Source: Aquitalea magnusonii
Lineage (GTDB): Bacteria > Pseudomonadota > Gammaproteobacteria > Burkholderiales > Chromobacteriaceae
Direction: 5' to 3'
Assembly (NCBI RefSeq): GCF_003202035.1
Contig: NZ_QJKC01000001.1
Coordinates: 71,114-135,113, forward strand
DNA length: 64,000 nt
This document shows, piece by piece, positions 34,050 through 45,758 of the stretch. The notes under the pieces are model-generated. The model did not search any database, was not told the DNA's origin, and saw nothing but the letters and a program-made list of their open reading frames with translations. Numbering within the stretch: position 1 is the first letter of the stretch; the number at the start of each line of letters is the position of its first letter. Made by a program: the position numbers and the translations under genes.

Positions 34050-34685
34050 TCAGCTCAATGTAGGGTTGGTGTTGGTGTAACTGCCCATGTTTTCGGCGTA
34101 GACGCCGGCGGCAACGGCGACGGAGCCCACCAGCATGCGGCCGTAGCCGACCGGGACTGCATATCCTTGGCCGGCGACGTTTTCAGTTCCACCGAAAGCG
34201 TAGGACGATAGGTTGCTGCTTGAAGCGGCGACCCCTATCTTTTGCTGTGGAGACAGCATCTCGATCACGCCCCCCAGCATCATGGATGCACCCATCATGG
34301 CAACAGAGCCGTATGCGGTAAGTCCGCCTGATGCTGTTGTAAGGCCGGAAAGTCCTGCTCCTGGGGCCATCTGGATTGCCGCATAGATAAGAGATGCGCC
34401 AATAACAATTCTCCCAACAGATCCAGCACCCCGCACAATCGGCATCAGGGTCACTGTCTGGCCTCCATGCAGGGCATCAAACTCATTTTCGTCGATGGCC
34501 CGCTTGTTCAGCCGCAACCGGAAAACCAACCCCATGTCCGACAGTTCCAGAATGCGTTTGATAAACCCCGGCCTGTTTGCCTCGATGGCACGAATGGCCT
34601 CTGTCGGCCGGTCAATGTCCAGCTTCCATACTTGGCCAAACTCCTGCCCCAGCCGGCCGCCCAGTTTTACGGTCGTCATGGTCAT
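34050..34685 (-). CDS. Lambda gpI-like tail tip assembly protein (TAPI, beta-grasp N-terminus)
   Basis: A 211-residue protein. Residues 1-80 resemble the ubiquitin-like beta-grasp start of lambda tail assembly protein I (TVKLGGRLGQEFG, RAIEANRPGFIKRI, HGGQTVTLMPIVRGAG). A Gly/Ala-rich membrane-like middle follows, then YAVPVGYGRMLVGSVAVAAGVYAE, the conserved C-terminal box. The usual neighbours K (JAB peptidase/NlpC) and J are absent. Its ATG overlaps the stop of the upstream gene (ATGA). Confidence 0.8.
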   Translation of the reverse strand: MTMTTVKLGGRLGQEFGQVWKLDIDRPTEAIRAIEANRPGFIKRILELSDMGLVFRLRLNKRAIDENEFDALHGGQTVTLMPIVRGAGSVGRIVIGASLIYAAIQMAPGAGLSGLTTASGGLTAYGSVAMMGASMMLGGVIEMLSPQQKIGVAASSSNLSSYAFGGTENVAGQGYAVPVGYGRMLVGSVAVAAGVYAENMGSYTNTNPTLS

Positions 34686-35529: not shown

Positions 35530-35730
35530 TTTGACTTCACTTAATCTTATTTTGAATAGGCGTATGGCATTCTACAGGCAAATGGCATTTATATGGATGG
35601 GGAAAACCGGGTTATCGTGGTGTCGCTTCGATGATGAGCTGTTGCACCGCTTCTGGATGTCGTGACGGCGCAGTTGCTTAATGGTCAGTAAAACAGTGTG
35701 GTGTATTGCTTCGGAAACGTCTCGTTTCTG

Positions 35731-36622
35731 TGTTTACACCAGTGTTTACACGATTACTGTTTACACCCCTTATCCGTGGATACCTGAGTGGATACCACGT
35801 ACTGGATACCAGCCTTTTCCGTGGAAACCTGAGTGGAAACCTCTGCTTTGGCAACCAGTCCTTTTTTTGGTTTTTAGCCTGCAACCAAGCCTGCAACTTT
35901 CCATGCTTTGGGTGGTAACCAGCGTGGTAACCGGCTCACTGGCTACCATGTCTTCGGGTGCGAACCCGTGCAAACCAGCTCAGTGCGAACCAGCCATTCT
36001 GCTGTTACACCGTCTGTTACATGCCCTCCATCTGCTGTTAACCGGCGTTGTTAACTCCCACTGTTAACCGGGCAGCAAGGCTCGTCGGAAACTGGAGTTT
36101 TCTGGAGTAGCCACCGTTATTTTTCGTTATCAGCCAGCACCTAGTTTTACCTAGTAGTGGCCAGGCTTTTTGCCCCGTTCCAACTCGCCAGAAAACTAAC
36201 ATTTACTAACAGTTTGCCCGGCCTGCTGGTGGGTGATTGCAAGGCATGAGCCTTATCATTCCTTATCAGCCTTGCTGGTCTGCTGGTCTGCTCAAACCCT
36301 CCAGGAAACCTGAGCATTTCTTGGTATCGCTTCTGCCCGCAACTCTAGTTTTCCCTAGTAGCTTGCACCGTCTGCACGTCAACAAATGACAACATGGCCA
36401 TGCCAACAATCCAGCCCCCAGCATGTCAAGTTTTGACAAGTAGGTGGGCGGCCTGCTGTCCGGTCGGCATGTCAGGTTTTGTCAGGTAGCAGTGCCGGCT
36501 GATTTCGTCATTTTTCATCTGGTTGTCCGGTTGGCATCTCAAGGTTTATCAAGTAGCTGGCCGGGTGGCCAGTGCGCGCCATCTTAGGATTTCTTGGGAT
36601 GCAGGCATAACAATTGATAACA
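35731..36622. repeat. Array of about twenty self-matching short direct repeats with changing words
   Basis: First half (35731-36069): TGTTTACAC at 35731, 35743, 35759; TGGATACC at 35777, 35789, 35803; TGGAAACC at 35822, 35834 (TGGCAACC 35849); GCCTGCAAC at 35877, 35889; GTGGTAACC at 35912, 35924; GTGCRAACC at 35958, 35968, 35983; CTGTTACA at 36002, 36014; GTTAAC at 36037, 36050, 36063. Period is mostly 12 bp, unit spacing near 45 bp, loose consensus TG-N2-3-ACC. Second half (36092-36622), period 10 bp: CTGGAG, CGTTAT, CCTAG, ACTAAC, CCTTATCA, CTAG, CAAC, CAAG, GTCAGG, TCAAG, CTTRGG and ATAACA pairs, usually joined by T-rich spacers and followed by TAG or CAG. No convincing gene lies here. Position after the primase operon suggests an origin. 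Confidence 0.85.
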
Positions 36623-36688
36623 GGGGCGTGCAATGCGGATTGCTGGCACAGAAATGGCCTTTCCTGCGTACTTGCCGCATCAGATGGG

Positions 36689-36784
36689 GATTGCATGGGA
36701 TTGTTTTCAAAAACAGTCGGATTGCCGGAAGTGGCCCCTTGACAGCCGATTGCATGGGGTTAATTTCAAAATCAGTCTGATTGC
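36689..36784. repeat. Two 37-bp direct repeats bounded by GATTGC
   Basis: Copies at 36689-36725 and 36748-36784 match at 32 of 37 positions. Each begins and ends with GATTGC, and a further GATTGC lies at 36638. They sit between the short-word array and the operon terminator. P4 carries long direct repeats (crr) as part of its replication origin, and these could be an equivalent. Confidence 0.7.
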
Positions 36785-36796
36785 GGTTTCAGACGC

Positions 36797-37175: not shown

Positions 37176-37618
37176 TTGCGTTTCCTTTCATCGTTGCGGC
37201 CAATCAGCAGGGTTTTGACGTGGCGGCGGTAGGTCTCGAACAGCTCCCACTCGGTGGACTCCTTGCGGGCTATCTGCCGGCGGGCAAACAGGATGGCCTC
37301 GTCAATGCTGCGCTGGTCCCAGCCATCCAGCCGGGCCGTGGTCGTGATGGCACGCATCAGGTCTTCATGGATGGTTGGCAGGGGGTGGCCTGTTCCCGGT
37401 GCAATGGCAGTGACCGTGGCGCTGGTCTGCTTCGGTGCAGGCGGCACAGTGCGGCCAGTCCCCACCAGCCACACATGCAGGGCATCGCGGTTGCGCTTGA
37501 TCTGTTCCACCAGGGCGGAAGGAACAATCGACAGGGGGCTGAGATGCACCTTGCCTTGTTGCGCCCAGCAGTTGGCACCGGTGGCGGCAATGGCGTTGTA
37601 GAGGGTTTCGGGCGTCAT
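37172..37618 (-). CDS. Unknown protein of the primase operon
   Basis: A 148-residue protein MTPETLYNAIAATGANC. The first 50 residues (AQQGKVHLSPLSIVPSALVEQIKRNRDALHVWL) resemble the TubC_N-type docking or small helical domains seen at the N-termini of some phage proteins; the likeness is weak. Its ATG overlaps the primase stop by one base (TGATG). Confidence 0.65.
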   Translation of the reverse strand: MTPETLYNAIAATGANCWAQQGKVHLSPLSIVPSALVEQIKRNRDALHVWLVGTGRTVPPAPKQTSATVTAIAPGTGHPLPTIHEDLMRAITTTARLDGWDQRSIDEAILFARRQIARKESTEWELFETYRRHVKTLLIGRNDERKRK

Positions 37619-39894
37619 CAGAATTTCACCTCGTCAGTACCGGTCAGCAGGTGGTCAGCGGCCTCATAGGCTGCGCTCCAGTCGTCGATGCTTTGGCTGT
37701 CCAGTGCGGGGACTGGCGGTGCTGTCGTGACTGGTGGCGGGCTGCTCAATGCCAGCTCTGAAAAACTCGGTTTTGGCGAGTTGCTAATGCTAATCGTGCT
37801 AATTTTGCTAACTTCACCCCCTGACCAACCCTGCGAATTAGCGGGATTAGCAGAATTAGCATTAGCACGGCCTGATAGCTGCATTCCTTGCAGGGTGAAA
37901 CTGGCCCCATCAAACGTCAGCCACTGGCGGCGGACTAGCTCATTAAGGGCTGCATTGCGGCGGTCTTTGTCCTTGCGCAGTGGGCCATAGCCTTTGGTGG
38001 CAATCGCTGATTTTGTGAAGGTCTTCCATCGCACATCATCCCTCTGCAAAAACTTGAGCAGCTCTTGAGCGTCGCGCTCTGTGGCGGATAGCTGGGTGGT
38101 TTCCGACAGGCGCAGCCATTCCGCCAGGCTGTAGCTCACCAGGCTGCAAGCGCGGGCCATGTCCTCACCCGACACCAGCAAATGCTCTGCCGGTTGCTCA
38201 AAGTGCCGCCAAACGGCAAACACCGTGGCCACTCTCACCGCCAGTTCGCCCGCACGGCCGCCGAAGGCTTGCAGGCTGCCGGTCAGGTCACCATCCAGCG
38301 GCGCTTGCCGGGCTTCTGTGGCGTTGTAGAAGGCCAGCCATAGAGCGGTGGCGTCAGTGGATAGCGTGGCGCTGGGCAGCTCCAGCCCGCCGTACTGGTC
38401 CACGTTTTCCGGCTGCTGGTTCATCCTCCCCAGCACAGCCCAATAGCGGCCAAGGCGCTGATCATGATCGGCCCGCTGGGTCAGTGTGCTTTCATCCAGG
38501 AAGCGCCCACCGGCAAGACTGGGCGGACTACTCAGCAGGAAGCGCGGCAGCAAGCCTTGGTCCCGCAGCAGCGGATCTGTCAGCGAGGAGGCAATGACGC
38601 TGGGCTGGCCAGACAGGAAGAGGCCAAAGCGGACGTTGTAGCGCACCCCACTGCCAGAGTCCTGCCCGATCCGGTCGCGCTCCACACCTCGGCCATCAAA
38701 CAGTCTAGTGAGGACGCCCAAGGCCCCGGCGCGGGTATCGCTCTTGAGCGTGTGCCCACCGAAAAACTGCGCAGCTTCGTCCGACGACCAGGACAGGGCT
38801 GGGCGGCTTCCTCGCACAAAATCGCTGACAATTTTCTCTAGTGTGGCCTCTGTGTAAACGCTGCGCGGATCGCGTGGCCGGTCTTGCAAGATGTCTTCAC
38901 GCTCTGGTCCCCTGGCTGCGGCGGCCTGCCGCTCTACCGCCTCGGCCTGGGTCTTGTGACGCTGGCGCTGCTCAATCTCGGATTGAGTAATCGGGTGGGT
39001 GGCCAGCGAAAAAGTAGCGCTCTTGCGGTCGCCGCTATTGGCCAGACTCAGCACAAACAGGCTGCAAGGCATTGCGCCCATCTTGGGGTGGTCGGCATTG
39101 GCAATGCGCTGGGCAACGTGCGCCACGGCAGCCAGTACCGCCATCCCGGCCAGCGGCTCAGGGGCCTGCACATGCTCGGCAATCGCCTGGGCGGCTTCTT
39201 GCATGGCCCCCGGCAGGCAATCGGCAGGCCACGGTGTCGGCTCACTGTCGCGCTCGAAAGGCTCCGGCCCGGTATCGGGCATTTCCACCTCGATCAGCGG
39301 CAAGGCAGCCAGCTCGGCCGGCTGGTGGGCGGCCAGCCAGTCCACTACATCGCCCTTGCTGGGCAGCGACAGGACAGACACGTCCACAATGCTGATTGCC
39401 GCCACGCCAGCGGCCTGTAGCAGCGGCAGGCAGTCGGCCAGGTACTTTGCCCCGGCTTCGTCATTGTCGGGCCAGATTGTCACGCTACGGCCCACCAGCG
39501 GCGTCCAGTCAGCCACATTGGCACTGTCAGCAGCTCCACTGGTGACTGCCACATGGCCCAGCCTCAGCAGCGCATCGGCAGCCTTCTCTCCTTCCACCAG
39601 GAAAACAGCGTCATCCGGTTGCAGGGCAAGGGCATGCAGGCCGTACAGTGGTTTTCCACCAGCAGGGGCTGGCGGTTCGCCAAAGCGGTATTGGCCGCCG
39701 CCGTGGTACATGGGCCTGATCCACTTATCACCGTTGTCATGCTTGGCCCTGATGCGCCAGTAAAGTGCTGTGCCGCTGGTGTCGGTATAGGTGTGCAAGG
39801 CTTCGGGCTTGTAGCCGGCGGCCTGGGCCTGGGCGGACAGGCGTCTTGCCGCCATCCGTGCTTCGTCGCTGGGTTTTATCGTCAGGTCAGCCAT
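37618..39894 (-). CDS. Primase-helicase with TOPRIM-like and DUF3987 (YfjI-type) domains
   Basis: A 758-residue protein. The N-terminal part (about 1-200) has a primase TOPRIM pattern: VFLVEGEKAADALLRLG, then VTIWPDNDEAGAKYL. The middle and C-terminal part is DUF3987-like, with a P-loop-type FVLSLANSGDRKSAT and SWSSDEAAQFFGGHTL. A Ser/Pro-rich tail (about 670-745) ends the protein. Such proteins replace phage P4 alpha in many integrative elements. The ATG at 39894 overlaps the CHC2 gene end by 8 bp; an upstream open frame (to 40053) has no domain sequence. Confidence 0.85.
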   Translation of the reverse strand: MADLTIKPSDEARMAARRLSAQAQAAGYKPEALHTYTDTSGTALYWRIRAKHDNGDKWIRPMYHGGGQYRFGEPPAPAGGKPLYGLHALALQPDDAVFLVEGEKAADALLRLGHVAVTSGAADSANVADWTPLVGRSVTIWPDNDEAGAKYLADCLPLLQAAGVAAISIVDVSVLSLPSKGDVVDWLAAHQPAELAALPLIEVEMPDTGPEPFERDSEPTPWPADCLPGAMQEAAQAIAEHVQAPEPLAGMAVLAAVAHVAQRIANADHPKMGAMPCSLFVLSLANSGDRKSATFSLATHPITQSEIEQRQRHKTQAEAVERQAAAARGPEREDILQDRPRDPRSVYTEATLEKIVSDFVRGSRPALSWSSDEAAQFFGGHTLKSDTRAGALGVLTRLFDGRGVERDRIGQDSGSGVRYNVRFGLFLSGQPSVIASSLTDPLLRDQGLLPRFLLSSPPSLAGGRFLDESTLTQRADHDQRLGRYWAVLGRMNQQPENVDQYGGLELPSATLSTDATALWLAFYNATEARQAPLDGDLTGSLQAFGGRAGELAVRVATVFAVWRHFEQPAEHLLVSGEDMARACSLVSYSLAEWLRLSETTQLSATERDAQELLKFLQRDDVRWKTFTKSAIATKGYGPLRKDKDRRNAALNELVRRQWLTFDGASFTLQGMQLSGRANANSANPANSQGWSGGEVSKISTISISNSPKPSFSELALSSPPPVTTAPPVPALDSQSIDDWSAAYEAADHLLTGTDEVKF

Positions 39895-40303
39895 GTTGCA
39901 CCTCCCATGCTCCAAGAGCCTTGGCAGCGTCGATAAAGCTGGCACCGGTCTGCTGGCGGTGGAAAGCCAGCACATCCCCACCGGCAGCCTGGCAGGCATG
40001 GCAGCGATAGGCCCCGGTGTGGACGTTGACCGACAGGCTGGCGTGGCTGTCATCGTGGAAAACGCACTTGGTCATGCGCCATTCCCCCTGGCCGCGCAGC
40101 TTCATGCCCTGGGCCTCAAAGAAGGACTGAGGATCTGGCAGCAAATCCCGCTTGAATTGACCGGGTGCTGTGCCAGAATAGTGGCTCGACTGTTTAATTT
40201 TCTCGCGGCCCACTCCCTGGGCCGTTTCTTTTTTCTGGCGCAGATTGGCGTAGAACTGCCCAATGGCCTCGCCCACCAGTTGTTTCATCTTTTCAGGTGT
40301 CAT
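39887..40303 (-). CDS. CHC2-type zinc-finger primase subunit
   Basis: A 138-residue protein. CVFHDDSHASLSV followed by YRCHACQAAGG gives the Cys-His-Cys-Cys zinc ribbon of DnaG-type primases, used to contact template DNA. It overlaps the TOPRIM/DUF3987 gene by 8 bp, so zinc finger and catalytic parts are made as two coupled polypeptides instead of one fused primase. Confidence 0.85.
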   Translation of the reverse strand: MTPEKMKQLVGEAIGQFYANLRQKKETAQGVGREKIKQSSHYSGTAPGQFKRDLLPDPQSFFEAQGMKLRGQGEWRMTKCVFHDDSHASLSVNVHTGAYRCHACQAAGGDVLAFHRQQTGASFIDAAKALGAWEVQHG

Positions 40304-41680: not shown

Positions 41681-41779
41681 TCATGCGGTTATTCTCCCGA
41701 TCATGAAGCCAGTTAGCAGGATGGCGGCGTCAGCAAGGTACGGTGCCAGACTGGTGTAGATCCGATAGAGGCGGTTCAT
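41681..41779 (-). CDS. 32-residue hydrophobic leader-like peptide
   Basis: MNRLYRIYTSLAPYL followed by ADAAILLTGFMIGRITA. The ATG overlaps the KilA-N stop (ATGA) and the TGA overlaps the next ATG (41684). The perfect coupling on both sides suggests it is translated. It has one hydrophobic helix. It may only carry ribosomes into the C4 region. Confidence 0.5.
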   Translation of the reverse strand: MNRLYRIYTSLAPYLADAAILLTGFMIGRITA

Positions 41780-42447
41780 GCTGTCAGCCTCCCGCTTGTA
41801 TCGTTCGCAGCCAGGTTCTGGCGCTGTTCCTGGGCGAAGGTGTGCAGGGCTTGCTTGCGCTCGTCGTAGGCCATGCCACGGCCCAGTAACACCATGTCTT
41901 GGGCTTCCAGCAGCTCCAACAAGCGCAGGCCAGTCCTGCTTAGACTGTTGCGGTCTATGGCAGCACGTTGGCCGGTCAGTACTTCATTGATTAGCAGGGC
42001 CTCGTTGCTGTAGTGGTGTCGTGCCGTTGTCTTGCCATCGGCCTGCCGGGACAGGTTCAGCATGTCGCAGACGCCACGGAAGCGGCTGGCGGCCTCGATG
42101 CGGGCAGACTGCCAGTCACTCACGCCAGCATGGCCACGGATCAGGCCGTCTATCTGCATGTCGCACCAGATGGCCAGACGGGTATCCAGCCAGCGGGCAA
42201 AAACAACAGCCAGCTTGGGGTGCATCCAGGTGCCGCCGTTATTACCGCGCTTGGTTTTCAAAAGTGAGCCAGGCTCACATTTGAGCATGTCGGCCAGGGT
42301 GGTGATGTATTCCCGCGTCCCGTCCTGATTGAGCCAATCAACTGGGCGCTTGCCGTATTTATCGGCTGCCTCGGTGGCATTGAACCAAGCCTCAGCGGTG
42401 AAGCTCATCACGCTGCCGTCAAAGTCTGCTTTCACGATCTTGCTCAT
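41776..42447 (-). CDS. KilA-N domain protein
   Basis: A 223-residue protein starting MSKIVKADFDGSVMSFT. The KilA-N fold is clear: WFNATEAADKYGKRPVDWLNQ, then GTWMHPKLAVVFARWLDTRLAIWCD. KilA-N proteins bind DNA and act as antirepressors or replication regulators in phages. It overlaps the upstream gene by 4 bp. The C-terminal part has ASRFRGVCDMLN and LLELLEAQDMVLLG. Confidence 0.85.
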   Translation of the reverse strand: MSKIVKADFDGSVMSFTAEAWFNATEAADKYGKRPVDWLNQDGTREYITTLADMLKCEPGSLLKTKRGNNGGTWMHPKLAVVFARWLDTRLAIWCDMQIDGLIRGHAGVSDWQSARIEAASRFRGVCDMLNLSRQADGKTTARHHYSNEALLINEVLTGQRAAIDRNSLSRTGLRLLELLEAQDMVLLGRGMAYDERKQALHTFAQEQRQNLAANDTSGRLTA

Positions 42448-42746
42448 GCTGCTTCCTCCACTTTGCCGTAGCCAGGTCGCGGCCATTCCGGTGTGCCAAG
42501 CACGTACTGGGCGACACGGCGGCGCTCTTTGCCACGGAAGTACACTGCAGAGTGAATCACGCTGATGATGTTGAAGCCCATGCCACGCAGTTCATGGATG
42601 CGTGAGGCGGCTTCAGGAATGGAGTAATTACCGGTCAGCGTCAGGCTGTAGAGCGGTTTGCCACTCTTGGCATGCTGGCGCAGTAGGTTGAGGACTTCGC
42701 CGACCTGTCCGGTCGGGCTGGGGGCTTTTCGGGCTTGCTGTTCCAT
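42444..42746 (-). CDS. Winged-helix-type small regulator
   Basis: A 100-residue protein MEQQARKAPSPTGQVGEVLNLLRQHAKSG. The pattern SIPEAASRIHELRGMGFNI is that of helix-turn-helix proteins common in phage and satellite operons. It starts 9 bp after the AlpA-like stop. Confidence 0.7.
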   Translation of the reverse strand: MEQQARKAPSPTGQVGEVLNLLRQHAKSGKPLYSLTLTGNYSIPEAASRIHELRGMGFNIISVIHSAVYFRGKERRRVAQYVLGTPEWPRPGYGKVEEAA

Positions 42747-42755
42747 GTCCGCCCC

Positions 42756-42992
42756 TTATGCCGCGTCGGCCTGATAGTTGACCGGATCGGCAAGCCAGCG
42801 GTGCAGGTCGCTATTGCGGTACATGGTGCAGCGGATGCCCATGCGGATCGGCTGAGGGGCGCGGCCTTCCATGCTCAGGCGGCGGAAGGTTTCGCGGCAG
42901 ACAGGGGAGAAGCGTTGGAATTGTCCCCACCGGCTTAGGCCGTCAGCCGGTAGGGTTGCAGGGGCGGGGAGATGCTGGGTATTGCTTGCCAT
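42756..42992 (-). CDS. AlpA-like helix-turn-helix regulator
   Basis: A 78-residue protein starting MASNTQHLPAPATL; strong AAGGAGG ribosome site. The pattern FSPVCRETFRRLSMEGRAPQP, then RCTMYRNSDLHRWLADPV is of the AlpA/excisionase winged-helix type. It is first in the operon. In P4-like elements such proteins control integrase, excision or late transcription. Confidence 0.75.
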   Translation of the reverse strand: MASNTQHLPAPATLPADGLSRWGQFQRFSPVCRETFRRLSMEGRAPQPIRMGIRCTMYRNSDLHRWLADPVNYQADAA

Positions 42993-43083
42993 CGTTTTGC
43001 CTCCTTGGGCATCGGTTGCGATGGCTGCAAATGTAAAGCGGCACGGCGGCGGCTTTCTGGTAATCCCAACTGGTAATTGGTAA

Positions 43084-44181
43084 TCAGGTATTTCCCAGTA
43101 GGGCGAGGCCTTGGGAAATGTACTTCCTGATGTTTTCAGGACTGAGGCCGAAGGTGTCGGCATTGGGTAGGTTCTTGCATACGACCTCTATTTCTTGGCT
43201 AATTTGCGAGTAGTTTGGGTTCTCACCTCGTTTGTACCTGCCTCCCTTTTCGGCTAGTACCAGAGCAAGCCCCGCTAGCATTTTGAGGGTTGTATCTGAT
43301 GGCAAATCAGAGCTATTTCCACTGTCTCCGTTGTCTTCAAGAGATGCCTCAAATTTGGATATATCTGATGCCTTGACCATTAGTACGGAGTCGCTTGGAA
43401 GTCCCGATGAAGGGTAATAGTTATTTTTTTCTGGTTGAGATGCTGCTTTTTTTAGGTACTCTTTCCTGTTTTTGGTATGCTCATCCCTAATTTTTTTTGC
43501 TTCATCTTCTTTTATTTTTTTCTGTTTTATTTGACGCTCAAGCTCTTTCCCTGCGGCTAGTGAGCCCTTTTGGTATTGATTGTCGTCGAATGATTCTTGT
43601 AATTGATAAATTTTTCCATTTTCATCTTCGACAAAAGCCCCGTCAATGCTTGTCAGTGTGATGGAAGGGCCTCCAGTTTTTAATTGAAACTCATGCCTAA
43701 TATCCAGTCTCTCTGCACCAATCATGGGTAAGGTATAGCAGCCCTTTAGTGTTACAATGTGGTCTTCTAGTTCAAAAACCTCTGTTTCATTTCGTGGCCC
43801 CTTGTATATTGCAGTTAGTGGGTACTCTTTTAAGATATCTAGTAGTTGCTGTGATAAATGGTCAATCCAATTTTTGGATTCATTTAATAGTTCGTCAGAA
43901 GTATACTCGGCAGTTTTCGGAAACTCTTTGTTGAAAATTTCTAGCATTTCTCCTTTGATGCTTGGGTTCATAAATAATGAGAACTTGGCATCCGCAATGG
44001 GAACCCTATTGCATGGGATGGCTTGAGTGTGATTAACAAAATCAACAGAGAGTTTTAAGTGGCCATCAATAGCAAGCTGTAAGACATCCTTAATATCAAC
44101 GTCTTCGCCCAGGGATGCTGTCAGTCGCTTTGCAGCATCCTCAAGAGTTAGAAATTTTTTTAGTTTGAACAGTTTATTCAT
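43084..44181 (-). CDS. AT-rich cargo gene of unknown function next to integrase
   Basis: A 365-residue protein starting MNKLFKLKKFLTLEDAAKRL (AGGGGG before the ATG at 44181). The N-terminal region (TLEDAAKRLTASLGEDVDIKDVL, LAIDGHLKLSVDF) resembles a motif seen in hypothetical proteins of many proteobacterial accessory regions. A charged coiled coil (about 215-255, KELERQIKQKKIKEDEAKK) and a C-terminal helical domain (TLKMLAGLALVLAEKGG, then NYSQISQEIEVV and LSPENIRKYISQGL) follow. Base composition is clearly more AT-rich than its surroundings. The place between integrase and AlpA is a cargo hotspot in such elements. Confidence 0.7.
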   Translation of the reverse strand: MNKLFKLKKFLTLEDAAKRLTASLGEDVDIKDVLQLAIDGHLKLSVDFVNHTQAIPCNRVPIADAKFSLFMNPSIKGEMLEIFNKEFPKTAEYTSDELLNESKNWIDHLSQQLLDILKEYPLTAIYKGPRNETEVFELEDHIVTLKGCYTLPMIGAERLDIRHEFQLKTGGPSITLTSIDGAFVEDENGKIYQLQESFDDNQYQKGSLAAGKELERQIKQKKIKEDEAKKIRDEHTKNRKEYLKKAASQPEKNNYYPSSGLPSDSVLMVKASDISKFEASLEDNGDSGNSSDLPSDTTLKMLAGLALVLAEKGGRYKRGENPNYSQISQEIEVVCKNLPNADTFGLSPENIRKYISQGLALLGNT

Positions 44182-44278: not shown

Positions 44279-45493
44279 TTATGCGGTCTTGCGAATGGGT
44301 GTCACCTTGGCCCCGGCCTTGACTGCATCCAGGTACTTGCTCCAGTCACGCATCATGCTGGCCCGTTGTTCCAGATAGCGCGCATGGTTGTATGCGGCGC
44401 TGACGGCATTGCGCGGTGCGTGGGCAAGCTGTAGCTCGATATGGTCGTGCGGGTAGCCTTGTTCGTGCAGGATGGTGGAAGCAATGCCCCGGAAGCCGTG
44501 GCCGGTCATGCGGCTGTGGTAGCCCATGCGGTAGATGGCATAGAGCAGGGTATTATTGCTCATGCTCTTGCCTTCTCCGCGCTCACTGGGAAATAGCAGG
44601 GGGCGGTTGCCCGACAGCTTCCTGATGTCTTCCAGAATGGCCAGGGACTGGTCAGTCAGCGGGACAATGTGTTCTTCCCGCATTTTCATGCGCTCGGCCG
44701 GTATCCGCCATTGCCGGGCCTCCAAATCAAACTCCTCCCACTTGGCCCCGATCAGTTCGCTGGTGCGGACAAAGGTGTGCGCCATCATTTGCAGGGCAAG
44801 GCGGGTCAGCGGCTGGCCGTCGTAGGCGTCAATCAGGCGTAGCAGCTCCGGCAGCTCCTTGGCGCTCAGGCGGGCGTGGTTGGTTTTCTTGGCAGACTTG
44901 AGGGCGTCGGCCGGCTTCACGTCGGCAGCCGGGTTGCGTTCGGCCAGGCCGTGGGCCACGGCATAGCGCATGATCTGGCCGCAGGTTTGCAGTGCGCGCT
45001 TGGCAATATCCAGTGCGCCGCGGGCCTCGATCTTCTTCACCGTCATCAGCAGCAAGGGTGTGGTGATGTCCGTCACCGGCTTGTTGCCAATGACCGGGAA
45101 TACATCTGCCTCCAGCCGGCGCAATACATACTCGGCGTGGCGCTCGGTGCGTGTGCTGCGCCAGTCCTTCCACCATTGGCGGGCCACGGCCTCGAAGCTG
45201 TTTTCGCTGACGATCTTGGCAATCAGCTTTTCCTCTTGCCGGTTCTGCGATGGGTCGATGCCTTGCTTCACCAGGTCTTTGAGGCGGTCGCGCTCCAGCC
45301 GGGCAGCTTTCAGGCCGGTGTCAGGGTAGGTGCCAAGGGAGAGGAGGCCGGGTTTGCCGTTGAAGCGGTAGCGGAAGCGCCACCATTTGGCCCCGGTAGG
45401 CTGAATGTGCAGGGCAAGGCCCTCGCCATCGGAAAGTGTATAAGCCTTGTCCTGGGGCTTTGCAGCCTTGATTACCGGGTCTGTCAGCTTCAT
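44279..45493 (-). CDS. int: P4-type tyrosine recombinase (integrase)
   Basis: A 404-residue protein. The N-terminal DUF4102-type arm-binding domain (KLTDPVIKAAKPQDKAYTLSDGEGLALHI) is followed by the catalytic domain. The catalytic residues are in HTFVRTSELIGAKWEE (Arg), HGFRGIASTILHE (His-x-x-Arg), LAHAPRNAV (His) and YNHARYLEQR (Tyr). The ATG at 45493 was chosen; a TTG four codons upstream is also in frame. It sits 178 bp from the tRNA-Ser 3' end. A GTGTATAAC site touches its promoter region. Confidence 0.93.
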   Translation of the reverse strand: MKLTDPVIKAAKPQDKAYTLSDGEGLALHIQPTGAKWWRFRYRFNGKPGLLSLGTYPDTGLKAARLERDRLKDLVKQGIDPSQNRQEEKLIAKIVSENSFEAVARQWWKDWRSTRTERHAEYVLRRLEADVFPVIGNKPVTDITTPLLLMTVKKIEARGALDIAKRALQTCGQIMRYAVAHGLAERNPAADVKPADALKSAKKTNHARLSAKELPELLRLIDAYDGQPLTRLALQMMAHTFVRTSELIGAKWEEFDLEARQWRIPAERMKMREEHIVPLTDQSLAILEDIRKLSGNRPLLFPSERGEGKSMSNNTLLYAIYRMGYHSRMTGHGFRGIASTILHEQGYPHDHIELQLAHAPRNAVSAAYNHARYLEQRASMMRDWSKYLDAVKAGAKVTPIRKTA

Positions 45494-45506
45494 GGTGGGG
45501 ACCAAT

Positions 45507-45670: not shown

Positions 45671-45758
45671 TGGCGGAGGCTGTGGGATTCGAACCCACGG
45701 ACGGTTTCCCGTCGGCAGTTTTCAAGACTGCTGGTTTAAACCACTCACCCAAACCTCC
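45671..45758 (-). tRNA. serT: tRNA-Ser (anticodon UGA)
   Basis: 88 nt including an encoded CCA. Acceptor arms GGAGGTT / AGCCTCC, anticodon stem CAGTC-TTGAAAA-CTG with anticodon TGA, a long variable arm and TTCGAATCC in the T loop are all visible. Its 3' end faces the integrase and is the likely insertion site. Confidence 0.95.
45675..45690. other. Candidate right attachment core inside tRNA-Ser
   Basis: GGAGGCTGTGGGATTC in the 3' part of the tRNA gene matches 14 of 16 positions of 33348-33363. Insertion here keeps the tRNA intact. Confidence 0.5.

Follow-up and report, generated by a model that had tools for sequence, protein, structure and literature searches.

A candidate library of phage packaging sites in a satellite-like element of Aquitalea magnusonii

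The window analyzed here, a 64,000-nucleotide stretch of an Aquitalea magnusonii contig, contains a short interval (35731 to 36622) composed of small units. Each unit repeats its own word about one helical turn apart, and the word changes from one unit to the next. What could read such an array, and what does it do for the DNA that carries it?

The array and the element that carries it

The initial annotation described about twenty units of self-matching words at lags of 10 and 12 bp and proposed comparison with shuffled sequence. We used 500 dinucleotide-preserving shuffles as the null. Exact lag-10 runs (≥5) in 36076 to 36625 numbered 11 (expected, 0.56; shuffle maximum, 4), and lag-12 runs in 35725 to 36075 numbered 6 (expected, 0.33; shuffle maximum, 3). 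Both signals were far above those of the shuffles, and a scan of the 64 kb confirmed that they are local, as the top 890-bp windows coincided with the array (17 runs; mean of all windows, 3.5).

The first half (class A) comprises eight units (A1 to A8) of two or three copies each, with one deviating copy in some. Most copies have the form TG-NNN-ACC and start 12 and 15 bp apart (i.e., 12/15), while spacings of 12/14, 13/13, and 10/15 are also present. The recurrence near 45 bp previously noted for this half was recovered (lag 45; z = 4.6). The second half (class B) comprises 13 pairs of the form word6-N4-word6 at lag 10, including a weak one at 36503 to 36518 that was not tabulated. This catalogue of 8 + 13 units bears out the described identity within units and change between them. 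A T-rich spacer and a trailing TAG or CAG, also ascribed to the second half, hold for most units but not for those at 36378 and 36607.

Table 1. Features of the element and units of the array (positions within the window). Fractions give identical bases of 16 in the best terS match, and the encoded peptide is in parentheses.
Feature	Position	Strand	Description
Tail assembly protein I-like	34050..34685	-	phrog_32; 33% identity to AH14b_p20 of phiAH14b
A1	35731..35765	-	TGTTTACA(C) x3, lags 12/15; palindromic word, strand = assumed TerS-coding sense
A2	35777..35810	-	TGGATACC x3, lags 12/14
A3	35822..35856	-	TGGAAACC x2 + TGGCAACC, lags 12/15
A4	35877..35898	-	GCCTGCAAC x2, lag 12
A5	35913..35947	-	TGGTAACC x2 + TGGCTACC, lags 12/15
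A6	35959..35991	-	TGCGAACC / TGCAAACC / TGCGAACC, lags 10/15
A7	36003..36021	-	TGTTACA x2, lag 12; GTGTAACAGC x2 unit in phiAH14b array
A8	36036..36069	-	TGTTAAC(C) x3, lags 13/13
B1	36092..36107	-	CTGGAG-TTTT-CTGGAG; best terS 14/16 (L496)
B2	36115..36130	-	CGTTAT-TTTT-CGTTAT; 16/16 in L420 terS (QLITKNNV), protein-chosen set
B3	36139..36154	-	ACCTAG-TTTT-ACCTAG; 15/16 in L418 terS (ELLGKTRI), protein-chosen set
B4	36195..36210	-	ACTAAC-ATTT-ACTAAC; 16/16 in L269 terS (RLLVNVSI), loci chosen by another word
B5	36251..36266	-	CCTTAT-CATT-CCTTAT; best terS 13/16
B6	36343..36358	-	CTCTAG-TTTT-CCCTAG; 16/16 in L459 terS (ELLGKTRV), protein-chosen set
B7	36378..36393		GTCAAC-AAAT-GACAAC; best terS 13/16
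B8	36424..36439	-	TGTCAA-GTTT-TGACAA; 16/16 in annotated terS, Streptococcus phage Javan258 (found via B8)
B9	36470..36485	-	TGTCAG-GTTT-TGTCAG; 16/16 in terS loci chosen by same word
B10	36537..36552	-	TCTCAA-GGTT-TATCAA; best terS 13/16
B11	36582..36597	-	TCTTAG-GATT-TCTTGG; best terS 14/16, other register of gene
B12	36607..36622	-	ATAACA-ATTG-ATAACA; 15/16 in L442 terS (RLLSNVMV), protein-chosen set
DUF3987 replication protein	37618..40053	-	Own inverted iterons TGCTAAT, 37788-37870
CHC2 zinc-finger primase part	39887..40303	-	PF01807
KilA-N regulator	41776..42486	-	PF04383
Tyrosine integrase	44279..45505	-	Beside tRNA-Ser 45671-45758

L010, from Aquitalea sp. LB_tupeE (DUF3987 protein, 79% identical; part of G007, which is congeneric with the window's genome), and L033, from IMG/VR (87%), are the element's closest relatives. 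Both have an array at the same place with other words, and the copies within units have changed together (e.g., GTGGTAACC..GTGGTAACC in the window corresponds to GTGGAAACC..GTGGAAACC in L010), the behavior that the initial annotation proposed to look for. It had also named a conserved protein frame across the interval as evidence against its view. None was seen: the ORFs that cross it vary in both frame and strand, and relatives have a rearranged interval with varying spacers and numbers of units. The six L010 ORFs scanned included an integrase and a primase and no tail or head family.

Coding readings of the array were rejected, as it held only chance frames and a mini-ORF pattern for class B (M-S-x-F-x-K-stop) fit, by eye, just two or three units. 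A BLAST search of the whole array against phages returned no match. The array also includes a perfect 8-bp tandem unlike the other units (TGCTGGTC x2.5; 36273 to 36292). Next to the array, at 36690 to 36785, lies a third family of repeats (GATTGCATGGG-N-TTTTCAAAA-CAGT-GATTGC; present in two to four copies) that is also found at this place in L010 and L033; a search of phages for this family gave no informative match.

The host flanks of the element are about 2 kb apart in two congeners (G001 and G002), and thus the element is at most about 14.5 kb. Besides the genes in Table 1, it contains a lipoprotein-like ORF and an AlpA candidate (42756 to 43163) that had no Pfam match. No terminase, portal, or capsid gene was found among 13 distinct ORFs scanned between 32.3 and 45.5 kb (10 by Pfam, 10 by PHROGs, and 7 by both; small and overlapping ORFs lay outside the scan). 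With an integrase, its own replication gene, a size of <20 kb, and no terminase, portal, or capsid gene among the scanned ORFs, the element matches the general form of a phage satellite. As part of the packaging-site reading set out below, we judge from this gene content that it is likely a phage satellite lacking terminase and capsid.

At its 3' end, the DUF3987 gene has inverted iterons whose word differs by element (TGCTAAT in the window; TGCTGTT in L033, 7987 to 8066; GGCTAAT in L010, 8196 to 8254). The words of the window and L033 differ although the two DUF3987 proteins are 87% identical, which suggests a fast change of origin specificity.

Array words in small-terminase genes

First-half words were found as triples inside the small-terminase (terS) genes of one family of helix-turn-helix (HTH) TerS proteins (i.e., TGGATACC, TGGAAACC, TGGCAACC, TGGTAACC, TGCGAACC, TGTTAACC, and, once, TGTTTACAC). 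Triples of TGCGWACC were present in at least 120 IMG/VR stretches. Among the 120 listed, 87 were in an ORF with the TerS helix (assigned by script), 12 were in pentapeptide-repeat genes, which we set aside as false class A matches, and 21 were elsewhere. Triples of TGGNWACC at a fixed 12/15 spacing were likewise present in at least 120 stretches. Of the 80 such loci examined, 65 lay in terS as recognized by a loose motif, with TGGATACC (A2; 32 loci), TGGCAACC (A3; 14), TGGAAACC (A3; 13), TGGTAACC (A5; 3, this triple being found in five distinct TerS proteins), or mixed words (3); the other 15 were in arrays or elsewhere.

GenBank phages were chosen by TerS protein and not by word (57 records matched, of which 12 were examined). 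Triples at 15/12 were found in the terS genes of HK639 (GGTACGCA), USP_18 and 8P (GGTATCCA), Cruim01 (GGTTTCCA), and Pseudomonas phage PseuP_222 (GGTTCGC), and one at 12/13 was found in that of PS-1 (GGTGACCA). The A2 word thus occurs three times (12/15) in USP_18 and 8P and also in AP1, where two copies are clean and the flank of the third is altered; the A3 word TGGAAACC occurs three times in Cruim01, and the PseuP_222 triple corresponds to A6. EhrS_49, GZ7, and pAEv1818 repeat GGTACGCA or GTACGCA at other spacings, and the terS genes of Y7 and PdC23 had no such repeats. In 11 of the 12 phages, an annotated large-terminase gene lies immediately 3' of terS. On the basis of these loci and phages, terS genes contain the words of A2, A3, A5, and A6.

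Two words that had been nearly without partners served as predictions. Triples of TGTTTAC fell in a terS-like ORF in 1 of 15 stretches with the pattern (L631; TGTTTACACCAGTGTTTACACCGCCAGTGTTTAC at 12/15, nearly the A1 unit), and triples of TGTTAAC, the A8 word, fell in terS-like ORFs in 16 of 68 (12/15; by reading). The 12/15 spacing of class A terS genes is shared by A1, A3, and A5 and differs from that of A2 (12/14), A6 (10/15), and A8 (13/13). Among 61 genomes of the bacterial family, no class A TerS was detected by a query that recovered 3 of 3 controls, so any helpers in this family may be rare or virulent; Terminase_2 was present in 6 of the 61.

The TerS proteins themselves vary with the word. 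In 94 distinct proteins, residues of the putative recognition helix tracked the word almost without exception, in counts that ignore kinship. This set was restricted to class A genes with three equal words, excluding three mixed-word TerS and an uncounted number of ORFs that departed from the helix pattern. Two DNA patterns, neither involving the helix, supplied its loci together with the 12 GenBank phages, which were found with a protein query that includes the helix. The helix position was assigned by eye, and Pfam detects the HTH only below its cutoff. The pairings were TGCGTACC with EG-R (33/33), TGGATACC with HG-N (31/31), TGGAAACC with HT-N (13/13), TGGCAACC with HT-Q (6/7), TGCGAACC with DT-R (5/5), and TGGTAACC with HV-x (5/5). 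Written as GGT-N1N2N3-C, the word has at N1 an A with Gly and a T with Thr, Val, or Gln; at N2 a C with Arg, a T with Asn, a G with Gln or Ser, and an A with Gly, Ala, Gln, or Ser; and at N3 a G with Glu or Asp and a C with His. The mutual information of the leading residue-base pairs far exceeded that of shuffles. Because helices and words recombine (EG-R, DT-R, HG-N, HT-N, and HT-Q), the pattern points to a code rather than to one clade per word, and these sequences seem to follow a simple residue-to-word code.

Class B pairs have their counterpart in terS genes of the Terminase_2 family. We examined the best 80 of 595 protein matches to an alignment of eight TerS stretches, one of which was taken from a locus selected with a class B word. 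In 38 of the 80 genes, a lag-10 pair (≥6) sits 10 to 50 codons past the EYLVDLNAT motif; in the controls, the next 40 codons had a lag-10 pair in 1 of 80, and other lags gave 0 to 9. The pair mostly encodes ENLxKPxI-, LLxKTxx-, or RLLxNVxV-like stretches, so that two frames of terS are used to write the site.

When 24 exact class B units from three Aquitalea arrays were compared with the terS site region, the mean best identity was 0.86 (control region, 0.65; reversed units, 0.67). Five of the window's units (B2, B4, B6, B8, and B9) have a terS match of 16/16, B3 and B12 have one of 15/16, and the others reach 12 to 14/16, with no good terS partner for B5, B7, and B10. The lag of 10 equals the terS spacing in all class B units. 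For TGTCAGGTTTTNTCAGGT (B9), at least 120 IMG/VR stretches were found; of the 120 listed, 80 were in terS and 2 in partial terS (by script), 19 in other arrays, and 19 elsewhere. The B8 sequence also occurs in the satellites Javan225 and phiAH14b. The exact 18-mer of B1 was found in two IMG/VR stretches, neither in terS (0/2) nor within an ORF. In another genus of the family, an array unit (L371, in G025) is identical over 17 bases to a terS site (L369, in G026).

Other carriers of arrays

Arrays sharing several class A words were present in a further congener (L120, in G003) and on contig 34 of G007 (L119), in elements with the replication proteins DUF3631 and DUF927. In the Streptococcus satellite phage Javan225, integrase and regulator flank a class B array, L342 (PICI-like by eye) also carries an array, and a 15-kb contig (L327) combines one with integrase-like, KilA-N-like, and DUF927 genes. 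A DUF3987 element of Acinetobacter sp. ANC 3789 (L013, 9590 to 10150) carries a class B-like array with words overlapping those of Aquitalea.

In nine arrays, the terS-coding sense matched the primase strand in 40 of 45 automatic class A calls, at least one of these 40 being a class B unit. Of the five calls on the other strand, two were class B units and three counted a palindrome twice. This single orientation supports a directional signal.

A large-terminase (TerL) match was absent from 12 of 16 array-bearing records, with a model (phrog_2) that missed 1 of 3 controls (L195, which has a visible terminase ORF). The other four, all large records, have both an array and TerL. The two are >30 kb apart in G456 and G454, and G464 could not be separated into an array element and a phage. 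Judged by gene order, the L288 contig appears to hold a P2-like prophage and, after it, a distinct element (integrase, primase, tape measure, and array). In G451 (L613 to L615), an apparent P2-like prophage adjoins an array-bearing element in one 55-kb contig.

A tail tape-measure gene often lies near arrays (L616, 4604 to 7504; L618, 4494 to 7751; L615, 4803 to 7706; L620, 6672 to 10769; L120, 5617 to 7299). One such record, G450 (L616), had no large-terminase match; G451, G456, and G464 have one at a distance of 14 to 30 kb, so the tape-measure gene there may belong to either a satellite or a prophage. It would be remarkable for a satellite to encode its own tape measure.

A probable multi-helper packaging signal and comparison with known systems

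Many units have words that recur identically, at the same or nearly the same spacing, within terS genes, and the helix of TerS tracks the word. Among the units compared with terS (A1 to A3, A5, A6, A8, and B1 to B12), most have a counterpart in a phage terS gene, and B5, B7, and B10 have no good one. Identity within units and diversity between them are expected of packaging (pac) sites for many TerS proteins. We infer that the terS sequences are pac sites to which TerS would bind, also in the array, and we consider it likely that the array is a multi-helper packaging signal, a library of putative pac sites.

Each unit would be a compact copy of the site recognized by one phage TerS type, and phages would keep this site sequence within their terS gene. 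A TerS ring of HTH motifs could contact two or three copies of one word at helical spacing. Units would be self-matching because one TerS reads the whole unit, and they would differ from each other because TerS proteins differ. According to the available part of PMC4737164, the TerS of SF6 forms a ring of HTH motifs, and direct repeats lie at the start of terS in the SPP1 pac region; a same-word site at helical spacing fits both. A satellite without a terminase would need its helper's pac site. Once induced, it would be replicated by its own primase/DUF3987 machinery; any helper growing in the cell could then find its pac site among the roughly twenty, and headful packaging of satellite DNA would follow. 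By analogy, the relative phiAH14b supports packaging in a helper's capsids. Several findings count against this reading: the differing spacings of A2, A6, and A8; the units that lack a good terS partner; the small share of stretches with the A1 word (1 of 15) or the B1 word (0 of 2) that fall in terS; the absence of class A TerS from the 61 genomes of the family; the nearly nonspecific binding of pac DNA by the SF6 domain; and the lack of a site shared by the phiAH14b array and its helper.

A decoy array, in which TerS sites titrate or misdirect the terminases of competing phages and thereby protect the host with no need to package the element, is the main rival, and one that we hold to be unlikely. 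The evidence from words and helices fits it equally, and the records with both an array and TerL, of which G464 is not clearly two elements, speak for it. There is also a precedent for ectopic recognition sites halting a phage: in the presence of a plasmid with the lambda origin, phage yield fell by some three orders of magnitude (PMC4488673, excerpt). However, titration does not need the single orientation of 40 of 45 calls (although common descent could give the same), an element without a visible terminase or capsid among its 13 scanned ORFs would need a packaging signal, and phiAH14b is reported to be packaged in its helper's capsids (PMC4936722, excerpt). Decoy and packaging functions may also coexist.

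The initial annotation took an origin for the DUF3987 primase as the simplest reading. Iterons of an origin, whether for this machinery or for many foreign initiators, would account for a form and spacing like those of the type 1 repeats of P4 (whose alpha iteron, TGTTCACC, follows TG-NNN-ACC), and several primase genes of such elements do bear iterons near their 3' end. Those iterons, however, use one word each, and that of the window's DUF3987 gene (TGCTAAT, with a copy in L052) is not an array word. No single word is repeated through the array, as it would be through an origin. Loci with D5_N initiators also have iterons of their own, none of which is an array word (by reading). Moreover, elements with different primases (DUF3631 and DUF927) share array words, and array words recur in terS genes, those of class B at one place. 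The origin reading was dropped once array words surfaced inside terS genes; the array is probably no origin, and we rate this alternative as highly improbable. What stands of the earlier interpretation, given the words in terS, is selection on self-matching under helical constraint and an unknown recognition array; the DUF3987 origin does not. Neutral local duplication, with slippage producing the 10- to 12-bp repeats and the likeness to terS accidental or a relic of a decayed terS, is barely credible. Array DNA does turn over fast between relatives, but the 16/16 matches of the units at 36115 and 36343 are in genes chosen by protein, geometry and orientation recur, and words change together within units.

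If the array is a library of pac sites, the DNA of a satellite would spell out its helpers, and the helper range would be predictable from it and testable. Together with the TerS helix code, the library would predict which phages carry which satellite from sequence alone. It would account for a satellite living with many unrelated phages and for the self-matching words in the coding sequence of terS, and the element could probably travel in particles of many different viruses. We lean somewhat toward the broader view that pac-site libraries are a general satellite device in Proteobacteria and Firmicutes, each satellite listing its range of helpers legibly in TerS words.

One relative is phiAH14b of Pseudomonas sp. 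ANT_H14, which encodes an integrase, AlpA, Rha, a Toprim/DUF927 primase-helicase, a lipoprotein, and tail protein I and has a large array of both classes. It resembles the window element in its integrase, primase machinery, tail protein I, and class A and B array. Its authors did not find a terminase gene and inferred that its DNA is packaged by the headful mechanism in phiAH14a capsids (PMC4936722, excerpt). The AH14 particles are tail-less, so transfer is not demonstrated for this pair, and the available part of the same paper has no description of the array. phiAH14a, the documented helper of phiAH14b, encodes a DUF2280 protein in the small-subunit position. With 50 of its 55 kb searched, no site common to phiAH14a and the array was found beyond chance (10 merged matches versus 6.4 13-mers expected). 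The phiAH14b array (L624, 14957 to 16070) also has a further type of unit, mostly at lag 11 (TTTGAC, TGAGAC, CTGGAC, and CTAGAC); these are perhaps sites of yet another TerS family.

PICMIs are similar in having an integrase, a DUF3987-type primase (allowed in their model), no packaging-redirection genes found, and suggested pac-like packaging (PMC10803314, excerpt). They are inserted beside fis and carry AlpA; the window element lies at tRNA-Ser and not beside fis, and its AlpA candidate had no Pfam match. The available part of that paper does not report an array. Its authors could not identify the pac or cos sites of the helper. The DNA-binding domain of SF6 TerS binds pac DNA almost without sequence preference, and its weak preference for [TG][TC][AT]GGTT fits TCAGGTT of B9 (PMC4737164, excerpt). 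The pac regions of SPP1 and SF6 and the P4 type 1 iterons likewise have direct repeats, located within or close to the gene for an HTH or winged-helix protein, and they differ from the array in having a single repeat set per genome and no library.

To our knowledge, SaPI, PICI, and StCI pirates have one or two sites or one terS, and never the sites of about twenty unrelated terminases. SaPI and PICI satellites redirect the packaging of their helpers via terS or a helper-like cos or pac site (PMC10803314 and PMC11389934, excerpts), and StCI-301 has two putative cos sites resembling that of phage DT1 (PMC13376191, excerpt). Our search of open-licence PMC literature, including the available parts of PMC11389934, PMC10803314, PMC13376191, PMC10111431, and PMC4936722, found no description of an array of pac sites from different phages. 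Within the reach of this search, borrowing of one or two helper sites by satellites is known, and a library of many sites is not.
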